Virus record (IMG/VR): IMGVR_UViG_3300008267_000201
Location: 1 to 32,404 of that record
Direction: 5' to 3' (one strand)
Origin: a virus
DNA: 32,404 nt
Below, in pieces: positions 9,568 to 32,077 of this stretch. Below the pieces are notes generated by a model. It saw nothing but the letters and a program-made list of their open reading frames with translations, ran no database searches and was not told the DNA's origin. The position numbers and the translations under genes were made by a program. Each line of letters begins with the position of its first letter. Positions within the stretch are counted from its first letter, which is position 1.

Positions 9568-9578
9568 TTAATAAATAT
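9568..9578 (-). promoter_or_regulatory. ATATTTATTAA motif, weak variant
   Basis: The sense sequence ATATTTATTAA lies 3 nt before the ATG of the 345-aa tail-tip hydrolase. It keeps the ATATTTAT core of the structural-gene motif but differs after it. In AT-rich DNA, chance is possible. Confidence 0.35.
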
Positions 9579-9589
9579 TTTAAAAATAA

Positions 9590-10669
9590 TTATTTCCATT
9601 TATCTGGGATTTTGCCAGTCATATCCCAAAGTTGGGTCAAAGCAGCTAATTCTTTAAGTTCATCATAACTTGAAAGACCTTTTATTAAGGCTTTTAAAAT
9701 AGTAGGATAATTCCCATTAGTTAAAGTTGCAATAGTAGCATCAAGACCATCCTGGTATGAAAAATAATTTTTAACTCCTGGGGATGCGTTATATTTTGTT
9801 GAGTTTGGTTTTGTTTGGATTGAATTCCATGGGTTATAGGTAGCAGCAGCTCCCTCAGCAGCTCTCCAAACTTTCATCCACATTAAATTGTACTCAGTAG
9901 CTGGGGCTCCTAGGCGTGTTAGAATGTCTTTATACATTTGGGTCTGTTCAGATTGGGTGAAATCTATTGTATTATATCTTACAGCTCCTCCAGATTTGCT
10001 TTCTTTAATTGTCGGTGGATTTGATGCTGGTTTTTGGATCCAATTTTCAGTTCTAGCTTTTATTGTACTTTCATTTGATTTTAATATAGCAACTATATAC
10101 CCATTTGATTGGAATGCTAGTAATTCTTGTCTTCTTAACTCTACAAATCCAGGATGTGCTGAATATGAGTATTTAGTTCCATTGTAGTTATTAGGGTCAG
10201 AAGGGTCTGGGTAATTAGGGCCTGGTACCCATGCAAATAAGTCTCCTCTAAGGCCTCCATATTGGTTAGGTCTAGCAGGGTTTATTATTATAGGTGCTAC
10301 TGTTGGGGTTGGTTTAACATAAGCATATAAATCTGTAGTTATTATAGAATCAAATTCTTCAAATTTAGGTATTAGGATAACAGTTAAATCTGTTTCCCAA
10401 TCGTTATCTTTTAATCTATGATTTATACCAGTAATTATAAATTCTGAAGTAGTTGGGTATCCATCAGGGAGAAATCCTGTATTAACTTGGAGTTTTTGGT
10501 AGATTTTAAAGCCTGAGATTCCATCTAAAGTCATAGTAATTTTAAAAGGGATGAAGCCGGTTGACCCCCCAGAATATATTCTATCTTTTCCTTTAATATC
10601 ATAGTATAATCTATAATATTCAGAGGCTATAGATAAATTTTTTTCAGTTACTGTAGAATCAACTTTCAT
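9590..10669 (-). CDS. Baseplate hub-domain protein with C-terminal lysozyme/transglycosylase-like domain
   Basis: This 359-aa protein has an N-terminal 125 residues clearly paralogous to the next gene (both start MKVDST-TEKNLSI-SEYYRLYY and share SGGSTGFIP, LDGISGFKIYQKLQVNT and KDNDWETD). A Pro/Asn-rich linker spans about 120-165. The C-terminal part (about 243-345) resembles a lysozyme/soluble-transglycosylase fold found in phage tail proteins: MKVWRAAEGAAATYNPWNS, with E272 as catalytic acid candidate, then GVKNYFSYQDGLDATIATL and NGNYPTILKAL. It should cleave glycan strands, complementing the peptide or amide cleavage suggested for its paralogue. Its start lies 9 nt from the stop of the 1126-aa gene. 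Confidence 0.75.
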   Translation of the reverse strand: MKVDSTVTEKNLSIASEYYRLYYDIKGKDRIYSGGSTGFIPFKITMTLDGISGFKIYQKLQVNTGFLPDGYPTTSEFIITGINHRLKDNDWETDLTVILIPKFEEFDSIITTDLYAYVKPTPTVAPIIINPARPNQYGGLRGDLFAWVPGPNYPDPSDPNNYNGTKYSYSAHPGFVELRRQELLAFQSNGYIVAILKSNESTIKARTENWIQKPASNPPTIKESKSGGAVRYNTIDFTQSEQTQMYKDILTRLGAPATEYNLMWMKVWRAAEGAAATYNPWNSIQTKPNSTKYNASPGVKNYFSYQDGLDATIATLTNGNYPTILKALIKGLSSYDELKELAALTQLWDMTGKIPDKWK

Positions 10670-10678
10670 ATTCTTTTA

Positions 10679-13600
10679 TTATACTATTCCAAGAGCATAA
10701 AAAGTATCTTGCATGATTTGTTGATAGGAAGAAATTATATCTTGTTTATAATCAGTAGAACCTGTAACAAATGTTTTATCTCCTGGGATGAAGTTTCTTT
10801 TAAATCTATCCTCAATACCTGTATTCCATTTGGCAAATGAGGTAGCTTCGATTCCTTTTGCATATCCTGCAGCTGTTGCTCCAATGGCAATCATAGATGC
10901 GTATTCAGGGGTAATAGCTGTTTTTAAATCAATTTTACGAGCAAATGTAGATTCATAAGTTTCAATTTCATTAGAGCTAATTATACCATCACTGTTTTTA
11001 TCTTTACCAAAAGCTTGGTATCCATATAATTGAAGTTCATATTTTCCTTCTTTATTTTTTGCCTTTTTATAGTCATATTTAGGAGTTGAATCTATTAAAT
11101 ATAAAGTATTAGTAGTTTCATCTATAACAGGCTCTATGTTATTTACCCCGGTTAATGCCTTGTTTAATCCAATACAGATATTATTAATAAATTGGTATGT
11201 TGCCATGTTTCCTCTCTCATCCGTAGCTGATAACATGCATTGTCCTACAAAGTCTGTATTTAGGTATACATTCATCATGTCGGCAACATTCTTATTATAA
11301 TCCTCTTGGGTATTAACTTCAGAATTATCTTCATTAGACCAAGCAACTAATTCAGGGAATACTATAGAGTTTTTTCCTCCGGTCCAAGTTTTTAGGACAT
11401 TATCTCTTCTAACAATAGCTTTACCTAAATCAAATGACATTTGGTTAGGTAAACATAACATGTCAAATGAACCAGTATTATAAGCTATTTTAATTATAGG
11501 AGGATTTTGATCATATGTTTCAACAGTTAATTTATTTTTATCAATTTTAAGAATAGCTTTATCTTCCATAATTTGAAGAAGAAATCCAAATCTTATATAG
11601 TATTGTTTACCTTCATCTAAATCTAATACACAAAATCCTTTAGGGTCATATGGGCTAATAGTATATATAGGGTTTTCTACAGTTTCTGTGCTTAATATTT
11701 TTTGGGATCTTTTAAATTTAACAGACCAGAAAAATGGTTTCCCTTGATCTTTAGCATTAGATTCATTAGATGCTACAAACCTATGGAAAAATTCAAATTC
11801 ATTATCTATAGGATTTCCATTATTATCATATTTAGGTGCAGGAAAATCAGGAGTTGTTTTTTCTTGGAATTCTTTCCAAGCTTTTTCAAGTTCTACAGTA
11901 GAACCATTAGGAGTGTAAGTCCCATCAGGCCAATTTGCAGGTACATTGGTTCCAGAAAAACTAGCATAGTCTGTACCTGAGTCGGGGCCTATAGGGGATT
12001 CACTTCTTTTAAGTTTTGAGTTGCTGAGAGTAAAGCGAGTTCCATAATTGCTAGTTGTAGGGTCAGAAGGGGTATATGACCATTTACTTTCTAAACCATC
12101 ATATATTGTTTGTAAATCACCTGATAATATGCCCCATATTCTGTAAGGGTATTGGAATGATACAAATTCACCGGAAGCAGCTCCACTGTCATAAAATCTT
12201 TGAGTGGTAATTTTTCGGTATCTAGAGTCAGTTGATGATCCTTTAGATAGATATTTGAATTTAAATACACTATCATCAGGTGAAGCTCCAGCTCCTAAAG
12301 AAACAGGGTAATATTCTTGATTAGTTGCAGAATATGTAAATTTTTCTGTTTTTGAATTAAATAATTGCTTTAGTAAATAGTACTTATTAGGCCATATAAA
12401 TATAGGGAATTTTTTTACATATTTTCCAGCAGCTGTATTTACAATTTCACCTGGGGTTTTAATAATTCCAGTGTAATTTCTTTCCCCCATGTAATAAGCA
12501 GGTGAAGGGAATGTATTAGATGTTTGTGGGTCTCCTAAATTAACAGTAGGAATATACATAGTACCATTATTACCTACAGGAGGATCAACATAATTGTATT
12601 CTGGTTGGTCAACTACTGGGATGTTTTGGGATACTTCATATGAGTTTATAGCTATGTTAGATTCTCCTGTTGTGGATTGTTGCCCTGCAGTCATTTGGAC
12701 TGTTTCTGATGGTATTGCAGGGGCGAATATAGGAGCAACGTTAGTTGGGGAAGGTACTCCAAAAAATGCTTTTCGTTGAAGCAAAGACCATTCTTTCTTA
12801 TCTTTTTCAAATAGTTCTTTTACTTTAGATTGAATTCCATCATATGTAAAATTTCCATTTTCATCAGTTTGAAAATGATATTCAGGTCGATAATAATCAA
12901 ATTCATTACTTTTTACAGGTGCTGTTGTATTATCAGAATTAAGCCTATTAAGAGTATATGTAGCTTCAAATGTTATTTTTTTAGTTTCAAATTTTGTTTC
13001 TGGGTCTCCTTGGCTTACAAAAAATCCTTTTTTGGCACCGTCTATGGTAAGTTTATCTGATTTGTATTTATCGTTAGCAGACAGTACTTCAAAAAATTTA
13101 AGCATTGTGAATAGAACATTATCTGTTCTATGGTCTTCAACTGTTCTTCCTTTTAAATAAGAAGTAGCACCCTTATCAACAGCATTATAGATTGCATTTT
13201 TTGCAGTAATATTGGTTTTTAAAGATTCTATAATATCACCATAACTAAGAATAGTTAATTCTACATCATAAGAACCATCTTTATTAAATGTCCAATTAAA
13301 ATTAGATACTTTACCTAATAACCCATCATAATTCCCAGCGTATATTTCTCTATAATTTTCTATATATTGTAATATATCATCATATGCTTTATCTTGATTC
13401 CACTCAGGATTAAAAAATAATTGGTCATTTTCTAAAATAGTATCAGCTACTTGTTGTAATCGACCATTGTTATCTAAGAAAATGCTGTTACCCCATTCTA
13501 ATAAAACAGTATAACCTAATCTAAGATACAATACATCTAAAATGTTTAATTGATTTCTATCTTGTACTTTAATTTTAACAATTGCCTTTTTTAATGAACC

Positions 13601-14059: not shown

Positions 14060-14070
14060 AACTTTTTGGT

Positions 14071-14382: not shown

Positions 14383-14393
14383 GTTTTTTTAAT

Positions 14394-16258: not shown

Positions 16259-16609
16259 TTAATTAAATCCTAAAGCACCAGCAAGCGACCCATCTTCATA
16301 CTTTGGAGGTTCAATTCCATTTAAATCTAAAGCAGATGGATTTGGAAGAGCATTAAGTACACCATCTTTATATAAATTATATAAAGCTTGAGTCCCACCA
16401 GCATTACTTCCATCTAATGAATATCCAGGAGCACTAGGAATAGTGTCACTATATTCTGCATGTAATGGAGAAAATTTAGTAGCTAAAGCATTAGTACTTA
16501 CACCATTAGGGGCAAAGTTGGTAGCATTAGTGTATGGAGTAGGAGTACCATTACCTGCTGTAAGGGTAAATAAAGACCCTTCATTAATTAATTTATTTTC
16601 TAAGCTCAT
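16259..16609 (-). CDS. Small hypothetical structural protein
   Basis: This 116-aa protein is of unknown function. It is rich in Ala, Asn, Gly, Pro and Ser (TAGNGTPTPYTNATNFAPNG near the N-terminus) and is probably flexible, with no catalytic or membrane signature. It is the first gene of the compact baseplate block after the tape measure gene and has an ATATTTATAAT motif 14 nt before its start. Placement between tape measure and baseplate genes suggests a tail-tip or baseplate part. Confidence 0.65.
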   Translation of the reverse strand: MSLENKLINEGSLFTLTAGNGTPTPYTNATNFAPNGVSTNALATKFSPLHAEYSDTIPSAPGYSLDGSNAGGTQALYNLYKDGVLNALPNPSALDLNGIEPPKYEDGSLAGALGFN

Positions 16610-16623: not shown

Positions 16624-16634
16624 ATTATAAATAT
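16624..16634 (-). promoter_or_regulatory. ATATTTATAAT motif before the baseplate block
   Basis: An exact sense copy ATATTTATAAT lies 14 nt upstream of the 116-aa gene and 6 nt after the tape measure stop. It could start a baseplate transcript covering the following tightly packed genes, none of which has an exact copy of its own. Confidence 0.6.
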
Positions 16635-16640: not shown

Positions 16641-19178
16641 TTATGATATTTGAAAAGCATTCTGAGCAGATGTTAATCCATCTTCATTAGGGAATGCTCC
16701 TTTTAATTCAACAATGTTTTTGCCATTAGCCGTTGCTGTTACATTTATTGGTCTGCTTGCTAATTCAACTATAGCAGCTTTTAAAGATTGAATTTCTTCT
16801 CTAAGCCCAGCACTACCTCCCCCTAATGATAATGAACCTTCAGCACCATAAACAACTCCATCATTCATTAAATTAGTACCAGCAACTATAGTATCTTTTT
16901 TATTAAAAGATATAGGGCCACCAGGTGCACCTAATAAAACTCTATCACCTCCAGGGCCTATAATACCATCATTCATAGCTGATTTAGCCATACTGTATGC
17001 TGAGTATGCTGCTACTGCAGCTCCAATGGCTGCCATTATTATAGGTACAGCGGCTCCTAAGGTAGAAGCGGCTGCTGTAGAGATAGAAGCTAATGCCCCT
17101 GCTTCTCGAGCTGCAGTGTTAGTAACAATAGCTCCAGTTTGTTGAGCTTCTCCGGCAGCGGCTGCTTTAGTAGACGTAGCAGTAGCGGCCGTTGCTACTG
17201 ATGTTGCTTGGGATGATCCAGCTATAGTTGAGGTATATCCTACTTGAGTTTTTTGGTAGTTTGTTGTAGATTTAGCAGCTGTATTTTGGGCCGTTTGTTG
17301 AGCAGATATTTGCTGCATTAACGATAACTGTTGTTGGAGGGTAGCGTTAACTGATTCTTGAGCTTTTTTCTGGTCATATATTGCCTTTACTTGGTAGTAA
17401 AGTTTAGCTAGGAATAATCCAGCTTGAAACACTAAAGTACCAGCTATTAACCCAGCAGCTATTGCTATGGCTTCTTTTATTAGATCAAACCCTGAAAGTA
17501 TTTGGTTTAGTATGCCAAAGAATTTATCAGCCATATTTCTAACCATTTCCAATGCAGCGTATATTCCTGGTAAGTGTTTATCTACTAGGTTTTGCATTAG
17601 GGCATCTATATGTTCAGCTACAGATGCCTGTTTATTTTGGGAATCCAATTGTTGTAATGCTATCATAGCCATTGCTCCTTGTTCTCCATGAGCGGCAACT
17701 AAAGATTGGTATCTAGCTTGCTCTGCAGAAAGAGATGATTGGGAAGCATTAGCCATAGTTTCTTGGGATGCTACTACTTTAGCCATTTCTTCAGCTGACA
17801 TGTTTAGGTAGTCAGCCATTGCTTGGATTCCAATAGCATTGTTTTGGGTAAAGAAACTAGAATCACCAACAGTCTTTTTAATTTCTTCAGCTAATTTAGC
17901 GTATTCGTTATTAAACGCTAATGTTCGCATGTATTCCCCATTAATTTTTTGACCTAATATCAATTCAGCTGATAATTCTTTCTCAATGGAGTCTTCAAAG
18001 TTTAATAATCCTTTAGCAGTTGCATTTACGTTTTCTAATGAAGTACCTAATGCTTTAGTAGTAGCTAATGCTTGAGCTAAACCTGTAGCTCCTCCTTCAA
18101 TTGTTAGTTTGAAAAACTCTGATGTTTTAGCTATGTCTTTTAATACATCTTTTTCATTTAATACAACTTTATGTCTTAATCCTGTAACTTTGTATTGGGA
18201 CATCATTTCCCCAGACATTTTTTCAACATCTCGCCTTTGGAGGTAGGCATATTTAGCTAACCCTGTTGTTTCTTCTAAAGTAAGACCAGCATACTTATAC
18301 ATTTTTCCCAAAAAGGCAACCCCTTTTTGTTCTTCTCTAGTCATTTCTCTAAAGTCCTGTTTAAGACCCATAGCTGCGTTAAGATCAGTAAAGACCTCAA
18401 GCATATCCCTAGAGTTATCATATATAGTTTTAGTAGATTGAGCTACGCTAGCCATGGATATTCTCATGCTAGCAGTTTCTTGATACGATCTATTTAAACT
18501 TTTTGCAGCTTTACCAGTTTGCTCATCTACTTCTTTAATAGTATTAAAAATGATATTAATAATATTACCTATAGCAGTAAGTGGATTTAGCCATTCTGAA
18601 AATGGTATCATGCTAACCATTTTTTGCATTCCTGCTAAAGCTTTGTCTGCTGTTTCTAGTCCTTTGGCTACTTTAACAGCTCTATCTAAGCTTTTTTCAA
18701 ATTTTCTCATGGACTTATCTGAGTCCTCTAAAACTTGTTTAAGTTGAGCTTGTAATTTTACATTTTCTGATATCTCTTTTCCAATACTTTTAAATTGGTT
18801 TATTTGGTTTTTAGTAAGAGATTCTTGTTTAGCTAAAAGCATTTGCTCTTGTCTTAATCCAGATAGGCGTTGTTCAAGTCCTTTCTGGTTTAATGCAAGA
18901 TTTTCTTTAGCTTGCTTGTATTGCTTTTTAAGGTCACTTAGCTGTTGTGCGGATAAATTAGCATTTTTCATCCCCCCTTCAGCAATTGAATGTTGATACT
19001 CACTAAATTTTTCAGCTATGTCAACTATTTCTCTAAAATTCTTTTTGGTGTTTTCAACAGATTTTTTAGGATCAAATTCAAAACTAGACATTTGAGCTTT
19101 TAATTGCCCAAATATGCCTGAAAGTTCTGCTGCGTCATCTTTAGCCTGGAGTATTCTACCTGTAAGATTTTTAGCCAT
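16641..19178 (-). CDS. Tape measure protein
   Basis: This 845-aa protein is the likely ruler and chaperoned core of the tail tube, which sets tail length and may help form the DNA channel. Residues about 40-170 are a long helical, coiled-coil region (many Lys, Gln and Glu). Hydrophobic segments lie at about 568-597 and 703-730, as is common in tape measure proteins. An Ala/Thr/Gln-rich stretch spans 610-700. The C-terminal block DGIIGPGGDRVLLG with KKDTIVAGTN (737-769) is a recurring tape-measure ending in related phages. It directly follows the gp26-like gene and its overlapping second frame, which is the classic chaperone-then-tape-measure order. An ATATTTATAAT motif lies 10 nt before the start. 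Confidence 0.85.
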   Translation of the reverse strand: MAKNLTGRILQAKDDAAELSGIFGQLKAQMSSFEFDPKKSVENTKKNFREIVDIAEKFSEYQHSIAEGGMKNANLSAQQLSDLKKQYKQAKENLALNQKGLEQRLSGLRQEQMLLAKQESLTKNQINQFKSIGKEISENVKLQAQLKQVLEDSDKSMRKFEKSLDRAVKVAKGLETADKALAGMQKMVSMIPFSEWLNPLTAIGNIINIIFNTIKEVDEQTGKAAKSLNRSYQETASMRISMASVAQSTKTIYDNSRDMLEVFTDLNAAMGLKQDFREMTREEQKGVAFLGKMYKYAGLTLEETTGLAKYAYLQRRDVEKMSGEMMSQYKVTGLRHKVVLNEKDVLKDIAKTSEFFKLTIEGGATGLAQALATTKALGTSLENVNATAKGLLNFEDSIEKELSAELILGQKINGEYMRTLAFNNEYAKLAEEIKKTVGDSSFFTQNNAIGIQAMADYLNMSAEEMAKVVASQETMANASQSSLSAEQARYQSLVAAHGEQGAMAMIALQQLDSQNKQASVAEHIDALMQNLVDKHLPGIYAALEMVRNMADKFFGILNQILSGFDLIKEAIAIAAGLIAGTLVFQAGLFLAKLYYQVKAIYDQKKAQESVNATLQQQLSLMQQISAQQTAQNTAAKSTTNYQKTQVGYTSTIAGSSQATSVATAATATSTKAAAAGEAQQTGAIVTNTAAREAGALASISTAAASTLGAAVPIIMAAIGAAVAAYSAYSMAKSAMNDGIIGPGGDRVLLGAPGGPISFNKKDTIVAGTNLMNDGVVYGAEGSLSLGGGSAGLREEIQSLKAAIVELASRPINVTATANGKNIVELKGAFPNEDGLTSAQNAFQIS

Positions 19179-19188: not shown

Positions 19189-19199
19189 ATTATAAATAT
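19189..19199 (-). promoter_or_regulatory. ATATTTATAAT motif before tape measure
   Basis: An exact sense copy lies 10 nt upstream of the tape measure start, in the 35-nt gap after the frameshift extension's stop. Confidence 0.6.
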
Positions 19200-20281: not shown

Positions 20282-20653
20282 TTAAAGAGCAGAAATATTA
20301 TCAGGATTTACATTATATGATAAAACTCCTTCTATTTTTAATATTGCTCTACGAATATCTTCCATTTTTGTACGATCAAAACCACCTTTTGTAATCCAAG
20401 GATGACCATCAACTTTAACAGTCATTATTGATTGGAATTTTTCTGTATCTTGTTCAGCATATTCCATCGGTTCTTTTACAGATGCTACTGTAATACCTGG
20501 TAGTGATCGGATGTCGGAAAATATTTCTTTTTGGGGGCGTTGTTTGATGTTAGTAATAAGCATCCCTACCATTTTAAATTTGTCTTGGTATTTTTCATTT
20601 AAAGCTTTTTTAAGCTCTTCTTGGATTATATTTTTTAATTGGTCTACTTTCAT
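20282..20653 (-). CDS. Small hypothetical protein in tail cluster
   Basis: This 123-aa protein has an N-terminal amphipathic helix (VDQLKNIIQEELKKALNEKY). An alternating beta-alpha pattern follows (SDIRSLPGITVASVKEP, FQSIMTVKVDGHPW, MEDIRRAILKIEGVLSYNV) that resembles a ferredoxin-like fold. No catalytic residues or membrane segments are visible. It lies between the secreted CHU_C-domain gene and the gp26-like gene. The ATATTTATAAT motif ends only 3 nt before its ATG. A tail assembly or scaffold role is plausible from position only. Confidence 0.75.
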   Translation of the reverse strand: MKVDQLKNIIQEELKKALNEKYQDKFKMVGMLITNIKQRPQKEIFSDIRSLPGITVASVKEPMEYAEQDTEKFQSIMTVKVDGHPWITKGGFDRTKMEDIRRAILKIEGVLSYNVNPDNISAL

Positions 20654-20656: not shown

Positions 20657-20667
20657 ATTATAAATAT
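20657..20667 (-). promoter_or_regulatory. ATATTTATAAT motif before the 123-aa gene
   Basis: An exact sense copy lies only 3 nt before the ATG and 4 nt after the stop of the CHU_C-domain gene. If it is a -10-type promoter element, the message would be leaderless or nearly so. This spacing is the main argument that the motif might act in translation or RNA processing instead. Confidence 0.55.
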
Positions 20668-20671: not shown

Positions 20672-22051
20672 CTATTTAATAAGATTTACATGACCACTAA
20701 TTATTTTATTATTAACATTTACAATATAAACATAAACACCAGTTGAACAATTTTTATTACTATATGAACCATCCCAATAACCTTCAGGATCAGACGATTC
20801 ATATACTAATTCTCCCCAAACATTATAAATTGTAAAATAAAAATTATTAAAAATAAAACCATCACTAAATACAGGATGAAATATGTTATTATATTCATTC
20901 CCATCAGGAGTAAAACTGTTAGGGATAAAACAATATTGTTCAACAATTGTATCAAAAGAAGGTTCAGGTGAAGGTAAAATTGAATCAATACTATCATTAA
21001 CATGTATGTCTTCTATAATATCTTCAGGATTATCAATAATACTAATAGCAGGTTTAATAAATACTGTATCAAAAGTAGTGTTAGGGTATGTATATGTTAT
21101 CCAATCTCCACTGCATGAAGGATATTCAAAGTGGCATGTGTAATAAGATCCATTAGTTGAAGGAGTTACATCAATTGAAGCAACATTAAATCCTATAGGC
21201 GTTGAGTTTCCTACTTCATACCATACCAATGTAGGTATAATTTCATTTCCTGATGGGGTCCAGCGGTAAGCGTCATTATATGCTGACCAAATTGTTGCAT
21301 TTCGTCCTGGGGTTAGTATTATGTTGTCTCCTGAAAGGTTAGATATTCCTTGGGTAGCTTTGCTTTGGTATGCTGCCCACGAATAGGAAGGTTTTGATTG
21401 GGTGTATACTTCAATTACATTGGTTGATTCATGTAACACAATATGAAAATTTCCATTATCGTTTGGATTAGGTGAATTATACATTTGTGGTCCTAAAGGG
21501 ACATTAATCCAACTTACAACTAATTTTCTATTAGGAGCAGTACCTTGGGTTTGGTATTTAATATTACCCCCAAAAGTTGAGATTGGGTTCCAACTTTGCC
21601 AAACCCCAAAAATACAATTTTTTGGATTTATATAGTAATTATTAGGAAGTGGATTGTTGGGGAGTGCATTCATTTGGGTATTAAGCCAATTAGGGTCAAC
21701 AATATGAGGAGTAAATGAAATCCACCCATTAGAACAAATATAAAATTGAGAATATGACTGGCCAAAAAAACAGAAATCAAATCCAATATTGAGCATAGGT
21801 GAATATGAATCATCACTCATATTAGGAATAGCATTTCCTGTATTTGTTTGTGCTGTATAAGGTATATTAGATACAGTGTAATTTGTAGTTTCACGAGGGT
21901 TATTTAGTTGGGTAGGTTGATTTAAATTGGCGGTTAAAGTAGTTGATGATGCGCCGTAAGGTAATGTTTGATTTGAACCTAAATCAGGATATTGTTGACT
22001 ATAACCAACATAAACCAACAAAATAAATAAAATACTTTTTAGAACTTTCAT
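20672..22051 (-). CDS. Secreted protein with T9SS/gliding-motility (CHU_C) C-terminal domain
   Basis: This 459-aa protein starts with a classic signal peptide (basic MKVLK, hydrophobic SILFILLVYVG, likely cleavage after YSQ near residue 19). Residues about 85-270 look like a beta-rich adhesin or nidogen-like region (NIGFDFCFFGQSYSQFYICS, then NGWISF). An Ig-like stretch with paired Cys (C306, C313) spans about 272-335, followed by an acidic/Ser/Pro linker. The end (373-459) is a type B sorting domain of the type IX secretion system: FIPNSFTPDGNEYNNIF, FTIYNVWGELVYES, YWDG, GVYVYIV. Such proteins are exported and attached to the surface of Bacteroidetes cells. It sits alone behind a terminator inside the tail operon. 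Function in the phage is unknown; modification of the infected cell surface is one option. Confidence 0.9.
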   Translation of the reverse strand: MKVLKSILFILLVYVGYSQQYPDLGSNQTLPYGASSTTLTANLNQPTQLNNPRETTNYTVSNIPYTAQTNTGNAIPNMSDDSYSPMLNIGFDFCFFGQSYSQFYICSNGWISFTPHIVDPNWLNTQMNALPNNPLPNNYYINPKNCIFGVWQSWNPISTFGGNIKYQTQGTAPNRKLVVSWINVPLGPQMYNSPNPNDNGNFHIVLHESTNVIEVYTQSKPSYSWAAYQSKATQGISNLSGDNIILTPGRNATIWSAYNDAYRWTPSGNEIIPTLVWYEVGNSTPIGFNVASIDVTPSTNGSYYTCHFEYPSCSGDWITYTYPNTTFDTVFIKPAISIIDNPEDIIEDIHVNDSIDSILPSPEPSFDTIVEQYCFIPNSFTPDGNEYNNIFHPVFSDGFIFNNFYFTIYNVWGELVYESSDPEGYWDGSYSNKNCSTGVYVYIVNVNNKIISGHVNLIK

Positions 22052-22103
22052 AACTCTTATTTTTATACTTTAAATATACAAAATACTTTTAACATCTCCA
22101 AAT

Positions 22104-22160: not shown

Positions 22161-22652
22161 TTAGTAGTTCAAGATACAATAATCTGGTTGTACTGTAACA
22201 GTAATGTTAACAGGTGTACCATCATCATCCCAGTTATAATCTCCAAAGTTAGCTTCAGTAATTACAGCTCCTTTAACAATCCATTCTGATACGTAATCAC
22301 CTACAGGGCCTACAGCGTTGAATGTAATGTCTTTTTTATAGAAATCAGAATAACCATCTCTACCTGTTACTGATTCGTGTCCTAAACGTACCCATTCCAT
22401 TACTGATTGTGCTCCAGAAGGAGTAATAGCATCATATAATGTAAAGGTAATAGTATTCCAGATAGTTTTTCCTTTTACATATCGTTGAATATTGATATGG
22501 TTAAGAGCTACAGCTGTTTGGGTCATAGATATTGCACTTACTCCTTTTACTAAGTATGCAGGAATCCCAGGTACTAAACTTAAATAAAAGCGATTAGTTT
22601 GTTTAGGTTCAAACGCTGTAAAGAATATCTGGTTATTGTCTAAAATTGGCAT
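22161..22652 (-). CDS. 19: Tail tube protein, gp19-like
   Basis: This 163-aa protein has the size and pattern of T4 gp19-family tube subunits, which stack into the inner tube through which DNA passes. Family-like elements are TNRFYLSLVPGIPAYLVKGV near the N-terminus, the WNTITFTLYDAITPSGAQ strand-loop, VMEWVRLGHE, and a C-terminal block EWIVKGAVITEANFGDYNWD followed by VNITVTVQPDYCILNY. It follows the two sheath genes, as gp18-gp19 does in T4, and is closed by a strong terminator. An ATATTTATAAT motif lies 20 nt upstream of the start. Confidence 0.92.
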   Translation of the reverse strand: MPILDNNQIFFTAFEPKQTNRFYLSLVPGIPAYLVKGVSAISMTQTAVALNHINIQRYVKGKTIWNTITFTLYDAITPSGAQSVMEWVRLGHESVTGRDGYSDFYKKDITFNAVGPVGDYVSEWIVKGAVITEANFGDYNWDDDGTPVNITVTVQPDYCILNY

Positions 22653-22672
22653 TTTAAGTTGGTTTTAATTTT

Positions 22673-22683
22673 ATTATAAATAT
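22673..22683 (-). promoter_or_regulatory. ATATTTATAAT motif before the tail tube gene
   Basis: An exact sense copy lies 20 nt upstream of the gp19-like start, giving the tube gene its own possible promoter in addition to read-through from the sheath genes. That would fit the high copy number needed. Confidence 0.6.
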
Positions 22684-22699
22684 CTAAACATTTAATTTT

Positions 22700-24427
22700 T
22701 TATCCGGGGAATTCAGCTCCTGTTGGTAATAAGATGAAATCCAAAGAAATAAATTCAGCTGTGCGAGTAGGTTTAATATAAATTTGTCCTACTAATTGGT
22801 TTTGATCAATTACTGCTGGGCCGTTGTTTGTTTCATCCATTACTACTTTGTAAGCGTATAATCCTTGTTTTTGTTGGATACCATCTAAGTATGGGTTTAC
22901 TCTGGATAGGAATGAACCTCTAGTAATTGAAGTATTTTGTTCAAATACTACAGTATCCGCAATTTGACGAATATAATTTTTTAATTCAATCATTAATCGA
23001 CGTACGTTTACACGATCAAGAGCTGAATCTGCTTTTTGTAATGTTTTTTGTCCAAATACTACAACTCCTTGTTTAGGTAATGTTGCAATTGGATTTATAT
23101 TATTAGCATATAAAGTATCTCTATTACCTTGAGTTAATTTAAATTGTGCTTGTAACACTGTATTTAAACCACCACGGTTAATTCCAGCAGGTGCAAACCA
23201 AGGAGCAGCTACTTTATCATTAAATGCATAAACACCTGGTATTAATGTAGAGGCAGGTACCCAAACATGTTTTCCAGTTGCTGGGTCTACAATACGAACC
23301 CAAGGCCAGTAAGCAGCAGCATATGAAGTATCTCTAGTTTGGGCTTCAGCTACAACATCTCCTAAAGTACTATTAAATGAAGTTAAATCTACTACAAACA
23401 TATTATCTCCTCTATTTTGAGTATTTAACAAAATACTTGAAATTTGAGAAGTATGAGTGTCATTTAATAATCCTGGGGTAAATAGTAAATTGAATTGGTA
23501 TGCTTCACGGTTTCCTAGTAAAGTAATCATGTTATCATAATCACTTCCTACTAATCCTTGAGTGTTTGTACCAATTTGATCATAAAAATTAATATTTGGA
23601 GCTACAGTACCTGCAGCGCCTCCAAATGCTCCTCCAATAGATCCACTTCCCGCAGCTGGTAATGAGCCAGTGTATAATGGGTTAGCTACATTTCCATTAG
23701 AGTCTAAATAGTTAGGAGTAGTATAATTTATTTCTTTAACTCTTACATATCGAGAAATATTTGGATAACTACCAGATACTTCCATTTGTTGGTTTGCAGA
23801 ATTATATTTTAATTTTTGATCACCTATAGCTTTAGCAATAAAGCGATTAGAATTAGGATCTAAATTAACATTATTAAAGGCTTCTAAAACAGTTTTACTG
23901 TTTTGTGTGTCATCTCCTCTTCGGATTAATACATTAAAGTTTCCTGATCCTGTATTTGGTTGGGTAATTTCCCATCTTACATTTTCTTTACTTCCAGAAA
24001 CTAAAGAACCATTAATCATTGAACCTGAGTTGTTCATAATAGCTCCTTCAGATATAGTTTCAAGAACAAATGGAGATAATCCAGATGTTGGGCCGCTAGA
24101 TCCAGTAGGCATATAGCTACTTGTGGCTGATGCCCAGTTAGCTGAAGATGATACTACTCTAGTTACAAGTAATGAGGTTCCGCCGTAATTGAAGTAGTTA
24201 TAGGCAGCAATTGAAGTAAGGTAAGAATAAGCATTACCACCACTAATAAAATTATCCCCAAATAACATTTGGAAATCAGAATATGAAGTTACTAAAGTGG
24301 GTTTTTCAACAGGTCCTTTTACAGTAGGTCCTACAATGGCTGCACCGGCTTGAACGGGTTGTCCTGTTAAAAATGTATTGTCTATCTCACTAATTGCTAC
24401 TCCTGGAGAAGATGTAAAGTTTGCCAT
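22700..24427 (-). CDS. 18: Tail sheath protein (copy 2), gp18-like
   Basis: This 575-aa protein is the contractile sheath subunit. The N-terminus (SSPGVAISEIDNTFL, then AAIVGPTVKGPVEKPTLVTS) and the C-terminal core (ALDRVNVRRLMIELKNYIRQ, VFEQNT, FLSRVNPYLDGIQQKQGLYA, GQIYIKPTRTAEFISLDFI) are standard gp18 sheath signatures. The middle (about 90-330) is the variable surface-exposed region with many Ser, Gly and Asn. It is a close paralogue of the next gene upstream and is cotranscribed with the tube gene. An ATATTTATAAT motif precedes the start by 11 nt. Confidence 0.94.
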   Translation of the reverse strand: MANFTSSPGVAISEIDNTFLTGQPVQAGAAIVGPTVKGPVEKPTLVTSYSDFQMLFGDNFISGGNAYSYLTSIAAYNYFNYGGTSLLVTRVVSSSANWASATSSYMPTGSSGPTSGLSPFVLETISEGAIMNNSGSMINGSLVSGSKENVRWEITQPNTGSGNFNVLIRRGDDTQNSKTVLEAFNNVNLDPNSNRFIAKAIGDQKLKYNSANQQMEVSGSYPNISRYVRVKEINYTTPNYLDSNGNVANPLYTGSLPAAGSGSIGGAFGGAAGTVAPNINFYDQIGTNTQGLVGSDYDNMITLLGNREAYQFNLLFTPGLLNDTHTSQISSILLNTQNRGDNMFVVDLTSFNSTLGDVVAEAQTRDTSYAAAYWPWVRIVDPATGKHVWVPASTLIPGVYAFNDKVAAPWFAPAGINRGGLNTVLQAQFKLTQGNRDTLYANNINPIATLPKQGVVVFGQKTLQKADSALDRVNVRRLMIELKNYIRQIADTVVFEQNTSITRGSFLSRVNPYLDGIQQKQGLYAYKVVMDETNNGPAVIDQNQLVGQIYIKPTRTAEFISLDFILLPTGAEFPG

Positions 24428-24438: not shown

Positions 24439-24449
24439 ATTATAAATAT
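24439..24449 (-). promoter_or_regulatory. ATATTTATAAT motif before sheath copy 2
   Basis: An exact sense copy lies 11 nt upstream of the start, in the 43-nt gap between the two sheath genes. Confidence 0.6.
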
Positions 24450-24470: not shown

Positions 24471-26264
24471 TTATTGGGTAGGAAATGTTGCCCCAGTAGG
24501 TAATATATTAAAATCTAATAAAATGAATTCAGCTGTTTTAGTAGGTTGAAGATAAATCTGTCCTATTAATTGATTTTGATCAACTACTTCAGGAGGGTTA
24601 TTAGACTCGTCCATTATTACTTGAAAAGCTGTTAAACCTTCTTGTTGTTGGACAATAGATAAATAAGGAGTTACTAAAGATAAAAATTGTTCTCTAGTTG
24701 CTGGAGTGTTTTGTTCAAAGACAAAACTTGTGGCTATACGGGAAATGTAATTTTTTAGGTTAATTAACAAACGCCTTACATTAACACGAGTTAATGATGT
24801 GTTTTGGGTTTGTAATGTTTTTTGCCCATATACTACTATAGCACCTCCTTGAGCTGTTGGAATTGAAGCTATAGGATTGACTTTATTTTGATAAAGTATA
24901 TCTCTATTACCTTGAGTTAATATTTTTTCAGTTTGAGTAGCTATAGTCATAACTCCTCTATTTACACCAGCAGGAGCTAACCACGGGTATCCATTTTTAT
25001 CATTAAATGCATATACACCAGGTATAAATGTAGAAGCAGGAGACCATACTTGAGTAGAAGAATTAGGAGGATGTACTGCTTTTACCCAAGGCCAATAAGC
25101 AGCAGCATATGAAGTGTCTTGGTTTTGAGCATTGGATGTAACTTGCCCTAAATTCTCATTATATTTAGCTAAATCAATAATAGCCATACAATTTCCTCTA
25201 TTTTCAACAACATTTATTAGTTGATTTATTACGCTATTGCTATCTGGGAAGAAATTTGGGTCGGCTATTAATCCTGGGGTGGTGATTATGTTGTAATTGT
25301 ATGCGTCTTTATTGGCTAGTAATGAAATAGATTCAGTGTAAGCAAATGGGCTTAAGCCTTGTATGTTAGCATCAGTAATATTTTCATTGTATAAACCATC
25401 ATATACTGTTGGTATGATATCTCCTTTTCCATCACCAAACACTCCACTTTGAGCTATAGGAATAGAACCAGTGTATTGGGGTTTAGGTAAACCATTATTA
25501 TCAAAATAATTGGGTGTAGGTTGATTTACCTGTTTTACCCTAATAGTTGAGTATTTATTAGGATAACTACCAGATAATTGAGTATAATATTCTCCCGTTG
25601 TTGGGTCTTGGCTGATGAGTTCAATTTGGTTTCCTATTACCTTTTCAATGTAATTAGATGAATTAGGGTCTAATGATACAGGGCCTATAGTATCTATTAT
25701 AGACATTAAAGTAGCTGAATCATTACCTTGTCTAATGATCAAAGAAAAAGTTCCAGATTGTGTATTAGGTGATACTATTTGGAATCTGTAGTTATCAGCA
25801 GATCCACTTAATAAAGTACCATTAGAACCAGTAGGCCCAACACTATTCATTATTATTCCTTCAGATAACGTTTCTAAAACAAAAACATCAGTATCATAAG
25901 GAGCACCAGCAGCATGAGCTGAAGATGATATAAAAGATGAAGTAGCTGGGGTCCAGTCATTTGTTGTACTCCCACTTACAACTCTAGTAACTAACAAAGC
26001 TCCAGGGTTAGGGCTTAGGTTTTGGAAGTAATTATAAGCAGCAAGTGAAGTAAAGTATGTATAAGTTGTTCCACCACTAACAAAAGTTTCACCATATTTG
26101 TTTTTATAATCAGAATATGATGTAACTATAGTAGGAATACCTACTTTACCCTTAACTGTTGGGCCTATAATAGCAGCATCTGCCTGTACAGGGAGCTGTA
26201 AGACAAAAGGTTGGTCGTTTTCTACTGCTAATATCCCAGGTGAGACAATTGTTTCTGAAGGCAT
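24471..26264 (-). CDS. 18: Tail sheath protein (copy 1), gp18-like
   Basis: This 597-aa paralogue of the following sheath gene has the same domain order: SPGILAVENDQPFVLQLPVQ, DAAIIGPTVKGKVGIPTIVTS, TRVNVRRLLINLKNYISRIA, FVFEQNTPATREQFLSLV, GQIYLQPTKTAEFILLDF. The conserved assembly core is shared, while the surface-exposed middle differs. Both copies keep all core motifs, so neither looks like a pseudogene. The pair may build a mixed sheath, or one may be specialised for one end of the tail. A variant motif (ATATTTATAAC) lies 16 nt before its start. Confidence 0.93.
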   Translation of the reverse strand: MPSETIVSPGILAVENDQPFVLQLPVQADAAIIGPTVKGKVGIPTIVTSYSDYKNKYGETFVSGGTTYTYFTSLAAYNYFQNLSPNPGALLVTRVVSGSTTNDWTPATSSFISSSAHAAGAPYDTDVFVLETLSEGIIMNSVGPTGSNGTLLSGSADNYRFQIVSPNTQSGTFSLIIRQGNDSATLMSIIDTIGPVSLDPNSSNYIEKVIGNQIELISQDPTTGEYYTQLSGSYPNKYSTIRVKQVNQPTPNYFDNNGLPKPQYTGSIPIAQSGVFGDGKGDIIPTVYDGLYNENITDANIQGLSPFAYTESISLLANKDAYNYNIITTPGLIADPNFFPDSNSVINQLINVVENRGNCMAIIDLAKYNENLGQVTSNAQNQDTSYAAAYWPWVKAVHPPNSSTQVWSPASTFIPGVYAFNDKNGYPWLAPAGVNRGVMTIATQTEKILTQGNRDILYQNKVNPIASIPTAQGGAIVVYGQKTLQTQNTSLTRVNVRRLLINLKNYISRIATSFVFEQNTPATREQFLSLVTPYLSIVQQQEGLTAFQVIMDESNNPPEVVDQNQLIGQIYLQPTKTAEFILLDFNILPTGATFPTQ

Positions 26265-26280
26265 TATTATAGATTATTTT

Positions 26281-26291
26281 GTTATAAATAT
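26281..26291 (-). promoter_or_regulatory. ATATTTATAAC motif before sheath copy 1
   Basis: A near-exact sense copy (last base C) lies 16 nt upstream of the first sheath gene, in the gap after the 87-aa gene. Confidence 0.55.
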
Positions 26292-26763: not shown

Positions 26764-26777
26764 TGTTTTTTATTATT

Positions 26778-27869: not shown

Positions 27870-27872
27870 ATG

Positions 27873-28574
27873 TTATATATTATTTTCAATGTAAATTATT
27901 GCGCTAGCTTCAACTGCGGTAGGTAATGTTACCCATGCTGGGGTTATCCAGTTGATTTCTAAAAAATCACCCTGCACAACACTCATAGATATTGTAGCAC
28001 TTAATACAGTTGCGTCTGCACTTGATCCTGCAGTGGTTGAAGTTGCTATTGTTTCAGCAACGCTAGAATTTTTATTCAGAGCTAGTGTTGATGTTCCTGC
28101 AGAGGCAAGAGTTCCGTTTGTTCTAATGTATAAGTGAGCATACCTTACTTTCCCAGGTCTTGGTACATATATTCTAGTTCGTCCTGATGTGGTGTTTAAC
28201 TGATTTCGTACTGGGGCACCCATGCGGTAGGTTGTGCTTGCGGCTAAATTGGATCCCGTAGTAGCTAATACAAATCCCATTGTGTATCCACTTTGTGATG
28301 CCATTGTAGCATAAGATGCAGTTGTTGTGATATTTGGAACAATTAATACATTGCCTGCTCCATTCCACTGGAAGGCTGTATCTGTCTGAAGAACTTGTGT
28401 GCCCGCTGAGTTAGTAGCTACCCATGTAGGGTAGAATATACCCGAATTACTGGAACCGTCAGCTGTAATCACTTTAGATGCAGTAGCTGCAGTTGTAGCT
28501 AGTGATGCGGTTGTAGCTAGTGATGCAGTTGATGCATTTATTAGTGAACCATTTATTTGACTTATATTTGCCAT
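27873..28574 (-). CDS. Tail fibre/receptor-binding protein candidate
   Basis: This 233-aa protein opens with an Ala/Ser/Thr-rich repeat (INASTASLATTASLATTAAT), typical of trimeric fibre shafts that recur across these phages. The C-terminal half (about 115-233) alternates short strands (GRTRIYVPRPGKVRYAHLYI, then STLALNKNSSVAETI, VVQGDFLEINWITPAW, EASAIIYIENNI). This resembles a jelly-roll-like tip domain. It lies between the 559-aa and 363-aa fibre genes, separated from each by only a few bases. A role in receptor recognition is inferred from composition and place. Confidence 0.75.
   Translation of the reverse strand: MANISQINGSLINASTASLATTASLATTAATASKVITADGSSNSGIFYPTWVATNSAGTQVLQTDTAFQWNGAGNVLIVPNITTTASYATMASQSGYTMGFVLATTGSNLAASTTYRMGAPVRNQLNTTSGRTRIYVPRPGKVRYAHLYIRTNGTLASAGTSTLALNKNSSVAETIATSTTAGSSADATVLSATISMSVVQGDFLEINWITPAWVTLPTAVEASAIIYIENNI
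28492..28527 (-). repeat. 18-bp tandem repeat encoding SLATTA
   Basis: Two adjacent 18-bp units (28492-28509 and 28510-28527) differ at one position. They encode the repeated Ala/Ser/Leu/Thr hexapeptide at the start of the fibre protein. In-frame unit gain or loss would change shaft length without breaking the gene. Confidence 0.85.
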
Positions 28575-28583
28575 TTTATATTT

Positions 28584-30263
28584 TTATATTGTGTACCAAT
28601 CATTAGCTGGTCTAAATTTCATCGTCCAATAATTATTATCTGTAATATTATTATAATAGGCATGGCCTAAAATTCTAACATAATTTCCTGTGTTTGTAGG
28701 TTGAACAGTAGACATTTGAATCCCACTGCTATCCCTGATATAGATAGGTAATCCATGATCTATTGATTGTACATATGGAGAGTTAGTTAACCCAGCATTA
28801 CTAGTTACTGCAAGAGATCCTTCTAGAAGAATTATTTGTCTAGCAACATCTATACAAATTCCTAGTAATTTAGAACAATCAGCAGTTGCTTGAGTAGTTT
28901 GGTACCATATACCATCTGTTTCTAAATATATTAAATCAAATTGAGCTACACTAACATCTAATGTTCCGTTTATTGATTCTCCTTCATAGTTAAATCCTAA
29001 ACTAGCTACATCTGAAAAATTTTCTTGTATGTTGTTGTTAATTATCTTTAAGTTATAAGAAAAGAATGTTGATTTGCCATTATTGCTATTGACATCCCAA
29101 TCTAATGAAGGGTTTCCAACGCTGTCTGTTAACAATCTACTACTCCACTGGATTGAAGATATAGTAGCACTGTCATATAGGTATCTATTTGTCCAATCAG
29201 CAGATAAAGTATTTGTAGGGTCTGTTAAAGTTTGAAAATCCCAATCAACTACTGCTATTCCTCCTTTATAAAGAAACCTATTGTCCCAATCCATTGCTGA
29301 AGCGGCAGTTGAGTCGGTTGCTGTTCTAGCAGGGAAATATATTGATGGTGTATTATTTGTGTCATAAGCTATATTTTCAGTTAGTACCCCATTGCTAGAA
29401 GAAACAATTAATGAACCTGTAATTATTACATTTTGTATAAGCGGGTTAACTGATGAAGCGGTTGATGCAAATGATGCTGATGTTACGTTTTGAGCCCAAG
29501 ATGCAGTTCCAAATAATGAGCCGGTAAATGATGTAGCCCAAACGTTTCCATTTACTTGGAATGAAGCAGAAGTTGGGTTGATTGTTCCAATGCCTATATT
29601 TCCACTTTTACCTGATATGATTCCTCCACCACTGCCTAATTTGATAGAACCTACTGTGGAGTCTTGTACACCATAAATACCCATATGGTTTGATACGTTG
29701 ATATCATATAAAGCAGCGTCATCACCACCTTGGAAGTACATACCTCCATTTATAGGAACATAAATTGGTTGGGTTACTGTTAAAGATCCAGTTATTACTG
29801 CATTCCCTACATATGGGAAAACCGATCCTCCGGTTGTTGATACTGTTATAACATTTCCACCAGAATCTACTGCTAAGTTAGCTGTTGCTGTTCCTGGAAA
29901 GGAAGAGGCTGCTGTATATCCTGCAAGTTGCATTTGAGTGGTATGTATATCCCACTGAGCTATTAATCCGGTGCTTGTAGTATTATTTCCTTTTAGTATC
30001 CTAGCTTTATTTTGCCAGTTGTCTATAAATGAAGCAGAAGTATAAGTACCTCCTGGTGCATTAAATCCTATTTGTCCACCTTCACTAGCAGCATCACGAG
30101 CTCCTAAAGTTAAAGTGTTTTCAAAGGGGCCTAAGCTTGAAGTTCCTATGGCAGCACTTCCCGTTATTACTACATTACCCCTAAGGTAAGCACCATTAGA
30201 TGAGGTAATAGAATTTAATAAAGCATCAGAACCTGATACTATGACTTTTTTCCAGTTTGGCAT
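28584..30263 (-). CDS. Tail fibre protein with WKKVIVSGS anchor and DW repeats
   Basis: This 559-aa protein begins PNWKKVIVSGSDALLNSI, the same opening as the 410-aa fibre protein, and is presumably the part that attaches to the tail. Gly/Ser/Asn-rich shaft segments follow. A degenerate repeat of about 20 residues then recurs (AMDWDNRFLYKGG, VDWDFQTLTDPTN, ADWTNRYLYDSAT, IQWSSRLLTDSVG, LDWDVN), encoded at about 29085-29305. The C-terminal 130 residues form a separate domain (GESINGTLDVSVAQFDLIYL, SKLLGICIDVARQIIL, YVRILGHAYYN, YWTMKF). This is typical of long trimeric fibres in marine and freshwater phages; receptor unknown. Confidence 0.82.
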   Translation of the reverse strand: MPNWKKVIVSGSDALLNSITSSNGAYLRGNVVITGSAAIGTSSLGPFENTLTLGARDAASEGGQIGFNAPGGTYTSASFIDNWQNKARILKGNNTTSTGLIAQWDIHTTQMQLAGYTAASSFPGTATANLAVDSGGNVITVSTTGGSVFPYVGNAVITGSLTVTQPIYVPINGGMYFQGGDDAALYDINVSNHMGIYGVQDSTVGSIKLGSGGGIISGKSGNIGIGTINPTSASFQVNGNVWATSFTGSLFGTASWAQNVTSASFASTASSVNPLIQNVIITGSLIVSSSNGVLTENIAYDTNNTPSIYFPARTATDSTAASAMDWDNRFLYKGGIAVVDWDFQTLTDPTNTLSADWTNRYLYDSATISSIQWSSRLLTDSVGNPSLDWDVNSNNGKSTFFSYNLKIINNNIQENFSDVASLGFNYEGESINGTLDVSVAQFDLIYLETDGIWYQTTQATADCSKLLGICIDVARQIILLEGSLAVTSNAGLTNSPYVQSIDHGLPIYIRDSSGIQMSTVQPTNTGNYVRILGHAYYNNITDNNYWTMKFRPANDWYTI

Positions 30264-30329
30264 TTATTTTTTTATTATGGTTGGTTATGTAGAATGCTAC
30301 ATCCACTTCCCTTTAGGGCCTATAATACA

Positions 30330-30340
30330 GTAATAAATAT
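30330..30340 (-). promoter_or_regulatory. ATATTTATTAC motif in fibre-gene leader
   Basis: A variant copy lies 66 nt upstream of the 559-aa fibre gene, the only large leader in the fibre block. Two small inverted repeats follow it (CCCTAAAGGG at 30309-30318 and TGTAG-CATT-CTACA at 30287-30300). It is weaker than the other copies. Confidence 0.35.
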
Positions 30341-30344
30341 GTTA

Positions 30345-30578
30345 TTATTTTTTTCTTGTTGTTTTACTCTCTTCATGTTGAGCAATTTGTTGAAGACCCA
30401 ATATTTTTGCTTCTTCTTCAGCTTTAATCATCTGAGTAATTTCTTCTAATTCGTATTCTAATTTTAATTGAATAGAAGCACAAAACTTAGCATCACGTCC
30501 TTGAATAGGAACAGTTTCTAAAGCTTGGCGGATAAAATTTAATTCACTATGAGTAAAATCTACAGAAAATAAATTCAT
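30345..30578 (-). CDS. Small hypothetical helical protein
   Basis: This 77-aa protein is mostly alpha-helical (HSELNFIRQALETVPIQG, then KFCASIQLKLEYELEEITQM) with a basic end (ESKTTRKK). It has no recognised family. It lies between two fibre genes, 7 nt after the 67-aa gene, and the pair is probably cotranslated. It could be a fibre assembly helper or unrelated cargo; the sequence does not decide. Confidence 0.7.
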   Translation of the reverse strand: MNLFSVDFTHSELNFIRQALETVPIQGRDAKFCASIQLKLEYELEEITQMIKAEEEAKILGLQQIAQHEESKTTRKK

Positions 30579-30585
30579 AACTTAA

Positions 30586-30789
30586 TTATTTGGTTTGTTC
30601 TAGATATTGATTTTGTAATTTAATTACTAAATTATATAAAGGTTCAATATCTTCTCCAAGGAAAGTTGTTTTTTTAACCATAGAAAGAAGAACCTCTATC
30701 TCCTTAACCGTTAATTGGTTAGGAGATAGGGGTTGGTTTTGTGTTTGAGTAGGAGTAACTCCTTCAATGTGGTTTGCTGTAAATCCCAT
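30586..30789 (-). CDS. Small hypothetical protein (67 aa)
   Basis: I place the start at the ATG at 30789 (MGFTANHIEGVTPTQ), not at the longer frame to 30885, which would run into the 410-aa fibre gene. The product has a Pro/Gln/Thr-rich start (TQTQNQPLSPNQLTV) and a helical C-terminus (EIEVLLSMVKKTTFLGEDIE, PLYNLVIKLQNQYLEQTK). That helical end resembles small helical proteins encoded beside tail genes in related phages. The leader (AAATTTTTAAAAAAATAGTT) is A/T-rich. Confidence 0.7.
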   Translation of the reverse strand: MGFTANHIEGVTPTQTQNQPLSPNQLTVKEIEVLLSMVKKTTFLGEDIEPLYNLVIKLQNQYLEQTK

Positions 30790-30811
30790 AACTATTTTTT
30801 TAAAAATTTTA

Positions 30812-32044
30812 TTAAGCGTAAATATAAATATCTCCTGTATCTGTTTTAACATATATATTTCCAAATCCATTACTTGCACCACCATAAACTGGTGCTGCTG
30901 TTGGTACTGCGGTTCCTACTTCTGTTGAAGTTACATAAGCTGCTGCTGTAAATGAAGATCCATTGGCTGTGAAACTTGATGTGAATCCCCAACGGTTAAT
31001 TGAATTTTCATACCCAAATAATTCACCTACATCTTGAGTAGCTTGTTGAACTACTATACCACCATCTCCTGCTGCGTTTGAGCCAGAAGCAAACAATACA
31101 AATCTATCAGCAACCTGTAAATTAGTTGTGTTTTGGAAAGAAGCTGTACCTTGTACTGTTAAATTATTAGTAATAACTGCATTTCCTGTTACTGTTAATG
31201 TTGATGTTGAGCCATTAAATTGTAAATTAGATTCACCATTAATTGTACCACCACCGGTTGCAGTTAAAATATAATTATCTGTATTATTAGTAATAGCATT
31301 TGTTATATTGTTAGTAGATGCAGCATATGAAGCGCTTAATGCTTGATTAGCATATGATGATGTTACTGTTAATGTGTTTGTTGTAGCATTAAAGGTTAAT
31401 GTAGCTGAGTCAACTCGTACTGCTCTGTTACCAGTTGTTCCATCAGCAAACATGACGTAATATGGGCCGGTACCTGTTGTTGTATCGGTTACAGCTACGT
31501 TAGTAGCATTAGTTGCTGAGTTAGCTGTAAGAGCATTAGATGCAAATGATGCACTTACTGCATTTAATACATAAGATGCTGTTGTTGCTGTGCCTAATAA
31601 AGATCCAGTAAAACTAGTTGAAGAAATAGAAGTAATACCTGTAATAGTAGAAGCTAAGGTTAAGCTATCAGTACCTTCAACTGCTAAATTAGTTCCTGCT
31701 AGATCTGTTAATAAGTTACCATAAGTAACATATTTACTAGTACCATCATTGATAAAAAACTGATCTGTTGATGTTAAGTCAGTTTTAGCAGTGATAGGAA
31801 ATGTTGCTGTAACACCTGTTAATCCGGAACCATTTCCTTGAAATGAGCCACTGAATGATCCAGACATTACTACTGAAGTAGCTCCATTTGTTGCTAAGAT
31901 GTTCCCTGTCCCATTAATTGCTGTAGTGGATAAGTTACCTGTACCTCCACCGATTACTACCTGACCTGAGGTAAGGTTGTCTACTTGAAGAGTGGTTAAA
32001 TTTGCACTGCTACCCGAGACTATTACTTTTTTCCAAGTTGCCAT
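30812..32044 (-). CDS. Tail fibre protein with WKKVIVSGS anchor
   Basis: This 410-aa protein starts MATWKKVIVSGSSANLTTLQ, sharing its opening with the 559-aa fibre. Its body is very rich in Thr, Ser, Asn, Ala and Gly, with repeated SFTGSLLGTATTASYVLNA-like heptads (ASYAxxA, NALTANSATNATN) characteristic of beta-helical fibre shafts. The C-terminal segment (VADRFVLFASGSNAAGDGGI, VVQQATQDVGELFGYENSIN, RWGF) is a conserved-looking fibre domain. The last residues (YGGASNGFGNIYVKTDTGDI, YIYA) form a short strand end. A variant ATATTTATAAC motif lies 22 nt upstream. Confidence 0.82.
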   Translation of the reverse strand: MATWKKVIVSGSSANLTTLQVDNLTSGQVVIGGGTGNLSTTAINGTGNILATNGATSVVMSGSFSGSFQGNGSGLTGVTATFPITAKTDLTSTDQFFINDGTSKYVTYGNLLTDLAGTNLAVEGTDSLTLASTITGITSISSTSFTGSLLGTATTASYVLNAVSASFASNALTANSATNATNVAVTDTTTGTGPYYVMFADGTTGNRAVRVDSATLTFNATTNTLTVTSSYANQALSASYAASTNNITNAITNNTDNYILTATGGGTINGESNLQFNGSTSTLTVTGNAVITNNLTVQGTASFQNTTNLQVADRFVLFASGSNAAGDGGIVVQQATQDVGELFGYENSINRWGFTSSFTANGSSFTAAAYVTSTEVGTAVPTAAPVYGGASNGFGNIYVKTDTGDIYIYA

Positions 32045-32066
32045 AATTTAATTTTTATTTTTTTTA

Positions 32067-32077
32067 GTTATAAATAT
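32067..32077 (-). promoter_or_regulatory. ATATTTATAAC motif before the 410-aa fibre gene
   Basis: A near-exact sense copy lies 22 nt upstream of the start, in the 41-nt gap behind the partial fibre gene. Confidence 0.55.

Follow-up and report, generated by a model that had tools for sequence, protein, structure and literature searches.

The window, by which we mean the whole stretch of DNA analyzed, comes from a T4-like myovirus; it is a fragment of 32.4 kb in which all selected ORFs lie on the minus strand, and a short word, ATATTTATAA(T/C), recurs in the gaps before its late genes. This raises the question of what the word does there, on which strand it is read, and by which protein. An earlier note on this DNA had described it as a reversed T4 late octamer directed away from the genes, and had offered two readings: a late promoter recognized by a gp55-like factor, or a sign of leaderless transcripts or of a translational or processing signal.

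The gene layout provides both the test genes and a negative control. The control is the replication block (732 to 7820, minus strand), in which Pfam assigns NrdB, a DnaB-type helicase, a 5'-3' exonuclease, a UvsX/RecA-like candidate, gp32, and the C-terminal part of PolA. The tail genes span approximately 7.8 to 32 kb and include two tandem sheath ORFs, a tube, and a tape-measure-like ORF. The tail tube (22161 to 22652) and tail sheath (22700 to 24427), which together occupy 22161 to 24427 on the minus strand, are both preceded by the motif; the sheath matches Pfam PF17482/PF04984, and the tube is 53% identical to that of Flavobacterium phage immuto, whose tape measure is matched by ORF 16641-19178. 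The immuto sheath is 50% identical to that of the window, which, together with a CHU_C (type IX secretion) domain encoded in the window, indicates a Bacteroidota host. This domain belongs to a 459-residue ORF within the tail cassette (20672 to 22051, minus strand) that has relatives in 47 loci and is apparently a phage gene addressed to the type IX secretion system of the host. Several other arrangements were seen in passing. The tandem sheath paralogues (22700 to 24427 and 24471 to 26264) have a late motif each, and the immuto annotation has one sheath only. The tandem ORFs at 8527 to 9564 and 9590 to 10669 share near-identical N-termini (MKVDST.TEKNLSI) and differ in their C-terminal halves. 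DNA polymerase A is in pieces: the window holds only a 416-residue part (6570 to 7820), and immuto has two separate PolA ORFs (1 to 1326 and 37898 to 40231).

Seven exact copies of ATATTTATAA(T/C) are present in the window, all on the minus, that is, the coding strand, with none antisense, and all in non-coding gaps 3 to 22 nt before tail or other late ORFs, whereas about 0.04 copies of ATATTTATAA would be expected under an order-2 Markov model built from the non-coding DNA of the window. The seven strong copies of the earlier note are thereby confirmed in number, place, and strand. The form ATATTTATAAT lies at 16624 to 16634, 14 nt before ORF 16259-16609; at 19189 to 19199, 10 nt before the tape-measure-like ORF; at 20657 to 20667, only 3 nt before ORF 20282-20653 and so of a near-leaderless type; at 22673 to 22683, 20 nt before the tail tube ORF; and at 24439 to 24449, 11 nt before the sheath ORF. 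The form ATATTTATAAC lies at 26281 to 26291, 16 nt before the second sheath ORF, and at 32067 to 32077, 22 nt before a fibre-like ORF (30812 to 32044). None of the six replication genes of the window has a copy, as the earlier note had maintained. A count that tolerated one mismatch and covered the window on both strands gave 13 copies against a shuffle mean of 10.9, which is not above chance; what carries the signal is thus the exact match together with its strand and placement, and we used only exact, stranded, and positional counts, taking a copy as upstream when it lay within 35 nt of an ORF start. The two weaker minus-strand copies of the earlier note did not hold up. The look-alike ATATTTATTA at 9568 to 9578 is one mismatch off and is probably not a site of the late-motif kind, judging from the upstream regions of its relatives (0/39 exact, 1/39 with one mismatch), and ATATTTATTAC at 30330 to 30340, also one mismatch off, lies approximately 66 nt from the next start codon, a placement unlike that of the other sites. 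Both are unsupported and should be left out of the motif count.

The strand bias and the restriction to late genes extend across the lineage. In 80 IMG/VR relatives of the sheath gene, taken together with the window, the ten-mer occurs 393 times in the sense and 8 times in the antisense direction; these relatives are not independent observations, and 85 distinct contexts were left once similar ones had been removed. The window, together with immuto and six larger contigs, has 104 sense copies against 1 antisense copy, with 2.4 expected, and 98 of the 104 lie no more than 35 nt upstream of an ORF start, although a few starts may be off because contig ORFs were called by a simple longest-ORF rule. 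The negative control drew on 80 loci around UvsX, of which 73 remained after contigs already counted had been dropped; they hold 11 sense and 6 antisense copies in 632 kb, compared with 340 and 7 in 723 kb of sheath loci treated likewise. By gene, the exact motif precedes 79/79 sheath and 76/76 tube orthologs, 37/42 orthologs of ORF 20282-20653 (hyp123), and 18/19 of ORF 16259-16609, as well as the second sheath in 77/77 relatives, a count in which the sheath paralogues cross-match. It is exact in 4/12 relatives of the tape-measure-like ORF and in the one relative of the fibre-like ORF with usable upstream DNA. Upstream of replication orthologs the exact motif was never found (UvsX 0/77, exonuclease 0/76, gp32 0/75, helicase 0/61, PolA 0/58, NrdB 0/40). 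The comparison with coding DNA and early genes that the earlier note had proposed thus came out in favor of a promoter, with nearly all copies just before ORFs and none before replication genes. As a stranded signal, the exact ATATTTATAA is absent from LR756508 (1:1 sense to antisense) and Mel-JY01 (0:0), though both encode the gp55-like protein discussed below.

The direction of the motif differs from that described earlier. Its sense strand reads TATTTATA, identical to the T4 octamer TATAAATA at 6/8 positions, and the exact octamer TATAAATA is held by the antisense strand. Since TATAAATA is nearly palindromic, being like its complement TATTTATA at 6/8 positions, a "reversed octamer" match arises without any reversal. 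In the rightward late block of T4, TATAAATA itself is found 10 times in the sense and 0 times in the antisense direction, and TATTTATA 0 times. The conserved flank of the motif (YAAAA) is on its sense-downstream side, and an orientation away from the genes is not supported.

Among the 85 distinct contexts, information is limited to the ten bases, the YAAAA after them, and, weakly, two bases before them, and the positional profile has no conserved element near -35. Single substitutions in the window and six contigs show that the first seven letters hardly vary, apart from a tolerated T5->G change (28:0 sense to antisense), and that T8 (30:6), A9 (20:5), and A10 (19:1) are looser. The T5->G form ATATGTATAA, which occurs 11:0 in the sense direction in the larger genome G001 and 7:0 in G002, often just before ORFs, is perhaps a late sub-class. 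The early-region motifs of these phages, unlike the late motif, do have an upstream element, as in G001 and G002, where GGAAT is paired with the box CGTATATT. More fully, the early regions of G001 (L098-L106) and G002 (L107-L115) carry aaGGAATa, approximately 16 nt, and TTTCGTATATT, with sense-to-antisense ratios of 34:2 and 32:3 and copies mostly 17 to 27 nt before ORFs, which is probably the early promoter of this lineage. Immuto (NC_055915) has GTTG...TATATTTAGGTA 16 times at 60 to 77 kb and at 22094 (L088-L089), 16:0 in the sense direction and mostly before short hypothetical genes, and this is likely its early promoter.

The spacing from the motif to the start codon ranges from 2 to 31 nt in the window and seven genomes, with a mode of 12 nt, while the ten-mer stays fixed. 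It is 12 nt to the ATG in 64/79 sheath genes and 3 to 4 nt in 31 of the 37 motif-bearing orthologs of ORF 20282-20653. The latter spacing, being kept, implies that the leader of this gene is no longer than about 3 nt. The leaderless transcripts that the earlier note had considered thus receive partial support, from the gene behind the 20657 copy but not from most others, whose leaders would be approximately 8 to 25 nt. At 7 sites the motif is closely preceded by a terminator-like hairpin, several of these ending within a few nucleotides of it or directly adjoining it, which leaves little room for another promoter there; such terminators show no statistical enrichment ahead of the motif (7/104 versus 18/354).

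With its fixed strand and position, its restriction to one gene class, its conservation throughout the lineage, and its lack of a -35 partner, the motif is in our judgment quite likely a late promoter of T4-like phages of Bacteroidota, lying on the sense strand and consisting of a -10 element alone, and its most likely reader is the gp55-like sigma-2 protein that these phages encode. We infer from the sequences that it initiates transcription, with the core ATAT(T/G)TA(TAA) acting as a -10-type element. RNA would most likely start at the A of the following YA, about 2 nt past the ten-mer, so that starts would fall at the YA 1 to 3 nt after (A/C)TATTTATAA. A form one base longer, ATATTTATAAAYAAA, recurs, a pattern that a start at the YA with a one-base tolerance would predict. 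The resulting leaders of about 1 to 25 nt would fit a host that uses no Shine-Dalgarno (SD) sequences.

The gp55-like gene is absent from the window, itself a 32-kb fragment, and was found in larger related genomes. The PHROG model of the T4 gp55 family, phrog_234, weakly matches a protein of a 174-kb relative (E 7e-4) and gp118 of immuto (E 0.008), orthologs of which occur at 46 to 47% identity in two large contigs, with many more in IMG/VR. An hhalign comparison of the gp118 family with nine T4-like gp55 sequences aligned 104 residues within sigma region 2, with E 8e-6 and a probability of 84%, whereas the pairwise comparison with gp55 is remote (23% identity, E 0.075). A PHROG scan of ten immuto proteins gave no sigma-family match, a PDB sequence-profile search with three gp55-like proteins did not match gp55, and a BFVD search gave one match, to an unnamed entry (E 4e-4). 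The AlphaFold model of the gp55-like protein (pLDDT 75) has no match in the PDB at E <= 0.001 by Foldseek alone; the sigma fold emerged only when candidates were re-aligned. VIA-align of the model to the top Foldseek chains placed T4 gp55 (7d7c_F) at Z 9.9 over 120 residues with an rmsd of 7.1, and sigma factors fill nearly all of the best rows (Z 8 to 9.9 over approximately 90 to 120 residues), so that the predicted structure has the sigma domain 2 fold of the gp55 family. In the named-phage collection, relatives at significant E are encoded by immuto, an unannotated 484-kb phage, and Microcystis phage Mel-JY01, all of which carry sheath relatives too.

Of the partners of gp55 in T4, a gp45-like clamp was found in 4/7 larger genomes (a phrog_223 match in G001, with orthologues in G002, G014, and Mel-JY01) and was not detected in immuto, G012, or G013, the immuto clade. 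No phrog_254 match for gp33 was obtained in the 7 genomes, which does not imply absence, as gp33 is short and poorly conserved. The search for these three proteins that the earlier note had suggested thus succeeded for gp55 and in part for gp45 but not for gp33, and its proposal of a late promoter read by a gp55-like factor agrees with the predicted sigma-2 protein in relatives and with the restriction of the motif to late genes. The host RNA polymerase would most likely be brought to the motif by this phage protein (immuto gp118 and its relatives), possibly with the help of the gp45-like clamp. The family also has an extra helical C-terminal domain of 93 residues, confidently predicted on its own (pLDDT 91), whose fold matches are weak (several helix-turn-helix proteins and one sigma-4, Z 4 to 5). 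As a tentative and rather doubtful suggestion, the protein may be a natural fused late sigma, combining sigma-2 with a C-terminal sigma-4- or gp33-like domain; that domain would dock on the polymerase flap and stand in for a separate gp33, and the fused protein would read the shifted box TATTTATA. A fusion of this kind has yet to be seen in nature, as a review on T4 late transcription notes (PMC2988020).

A late promoter could instead be read by the host sigma-A, or by an alternative host sigma with a phage activator, the motif being a weak TAnnTTTG -7 element without the -33 element. ATATTTA can indeed be aligned on TAnnTTTG with A-11, T-8, T-7, and T-6 matched, the presumed early promoters of immuto (TATATTTAGG) have TATTTA in common with the late motif, and the -33 element is only weak in F. 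johnsoniae promoters (PMC6847099). However, T-12 is not conserved, position G-5 is A, and the additional TAA after it is not required by host promoters. Strict confinement to late genes, a similar core in Mel-JY01, which was recorded from a cyanobacterium, and the gp55-like sigma-2 encoded by the phage also speak against a host factor, and we regard this explanation as improbable.

The translational or processing signal of the earlier note would make the motif an mRNA element of late transcripts, that is, a translation-initiation enhancer or an RNA processing site. The motif does lie near start codons, and Bacteroidota lack SD sequences and prefer A-rich leaders (PMC6847099). Against this, the ten-mer keeps its sequence over the whole range of spacings, is missing from replication genes, which use the same translation machinery, and is abutted by terminators at some sites. 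Mel-JY01 has a related motif, ATATTTAT(A/G)T(A/G), with 11 sense copies and 1 antisense copy, and its genes carry SD-like sequences; six sites in its structural region each lie 31 to 35 nt before an SD-preceded ATG, a distance that is most often 12 nt in the other phages. This shift of about 20 nt upstream, which makes room for an SD leader, is promoter-like and argues against a translation signal, and we consider an mRNA element very unlikely. Antisense transcription from a T4-type late promoter, TATAAATA on the other strand, is hardly credible in spite of the exact octamer there, since such a promoter would aim into the upstream gene at every site, with no gene there to transcribe, and the sense orientation of the octamer in T4, the sense-side flank, and the near-palindrome all count against it.

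A sense-strand late promoter read by a gp55-like factor thus remains the preferred reading, and the ten-mer is very probably the switch for the virion-building genes of a large group of Bacteroidota T4-like phages that has received little study. The literature searched holds no description of a late promoter or its sigma factor in Bacteroidota phages. The motif and gp118 would provide a probable late-promoter signal and a likely sigma factor for this large group of aquatic phages, so that late operons become predictable from contigs, and illustrate how a gp55-type box may have changed where the host phylum has promoter and translation rules of its own. With immuto on Flavobacterium, the idea that gp55 and gp33 are fused in one late sigma can be tested directly in a phage that is in culture.

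Among known systems, the Bacteroidota sigma-A promoter (-33 TTTG / -7 TAnnTTTG; PMC6847099, PMC9723704) has in common with the motif an A/T-rich host context and, if aligned, A-11 and T-8 to T-6, and differs in the elements named above (-33, T-12, and G-5, none conserved here), in the extra TAA, and in that the motif serves late genes only. The T4 late promoter (TATAAATA, with gp55, gp33, and gp45; PMC2988020, PMC7892883) is closer. Both consist of one AT-rich box without a -35 element, precede virion genes and not replication genes, have an AT-rich segment just downstream, and are tied to a gp55-like sigma-2, which is putative and found in relatives in our case. The present motif differs in its sense octamer (TATTTATA instead of TATAAATA, 6/8), with a nearly fixed A before it and AYA after it, and in a box much nearer the start codon; gp33 was not detected by profile, and the gp55-like protein has the extra C-terminal domain. 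The motif would work like a T4 late promoter, but we do not file it as one because its sense strand lacks the defining octamer TATAAATA. Lineage-specific variation of the gp55-recognized box is shared with the other T4-like late promoters, namely those of KVP40, 44RR, S-PM2, and Aeh1, the last with a/gC at -13/-12 (PMC2988020); these variants stay near the T4 consensus (PMC2988020), whereas here two central positions are changed.
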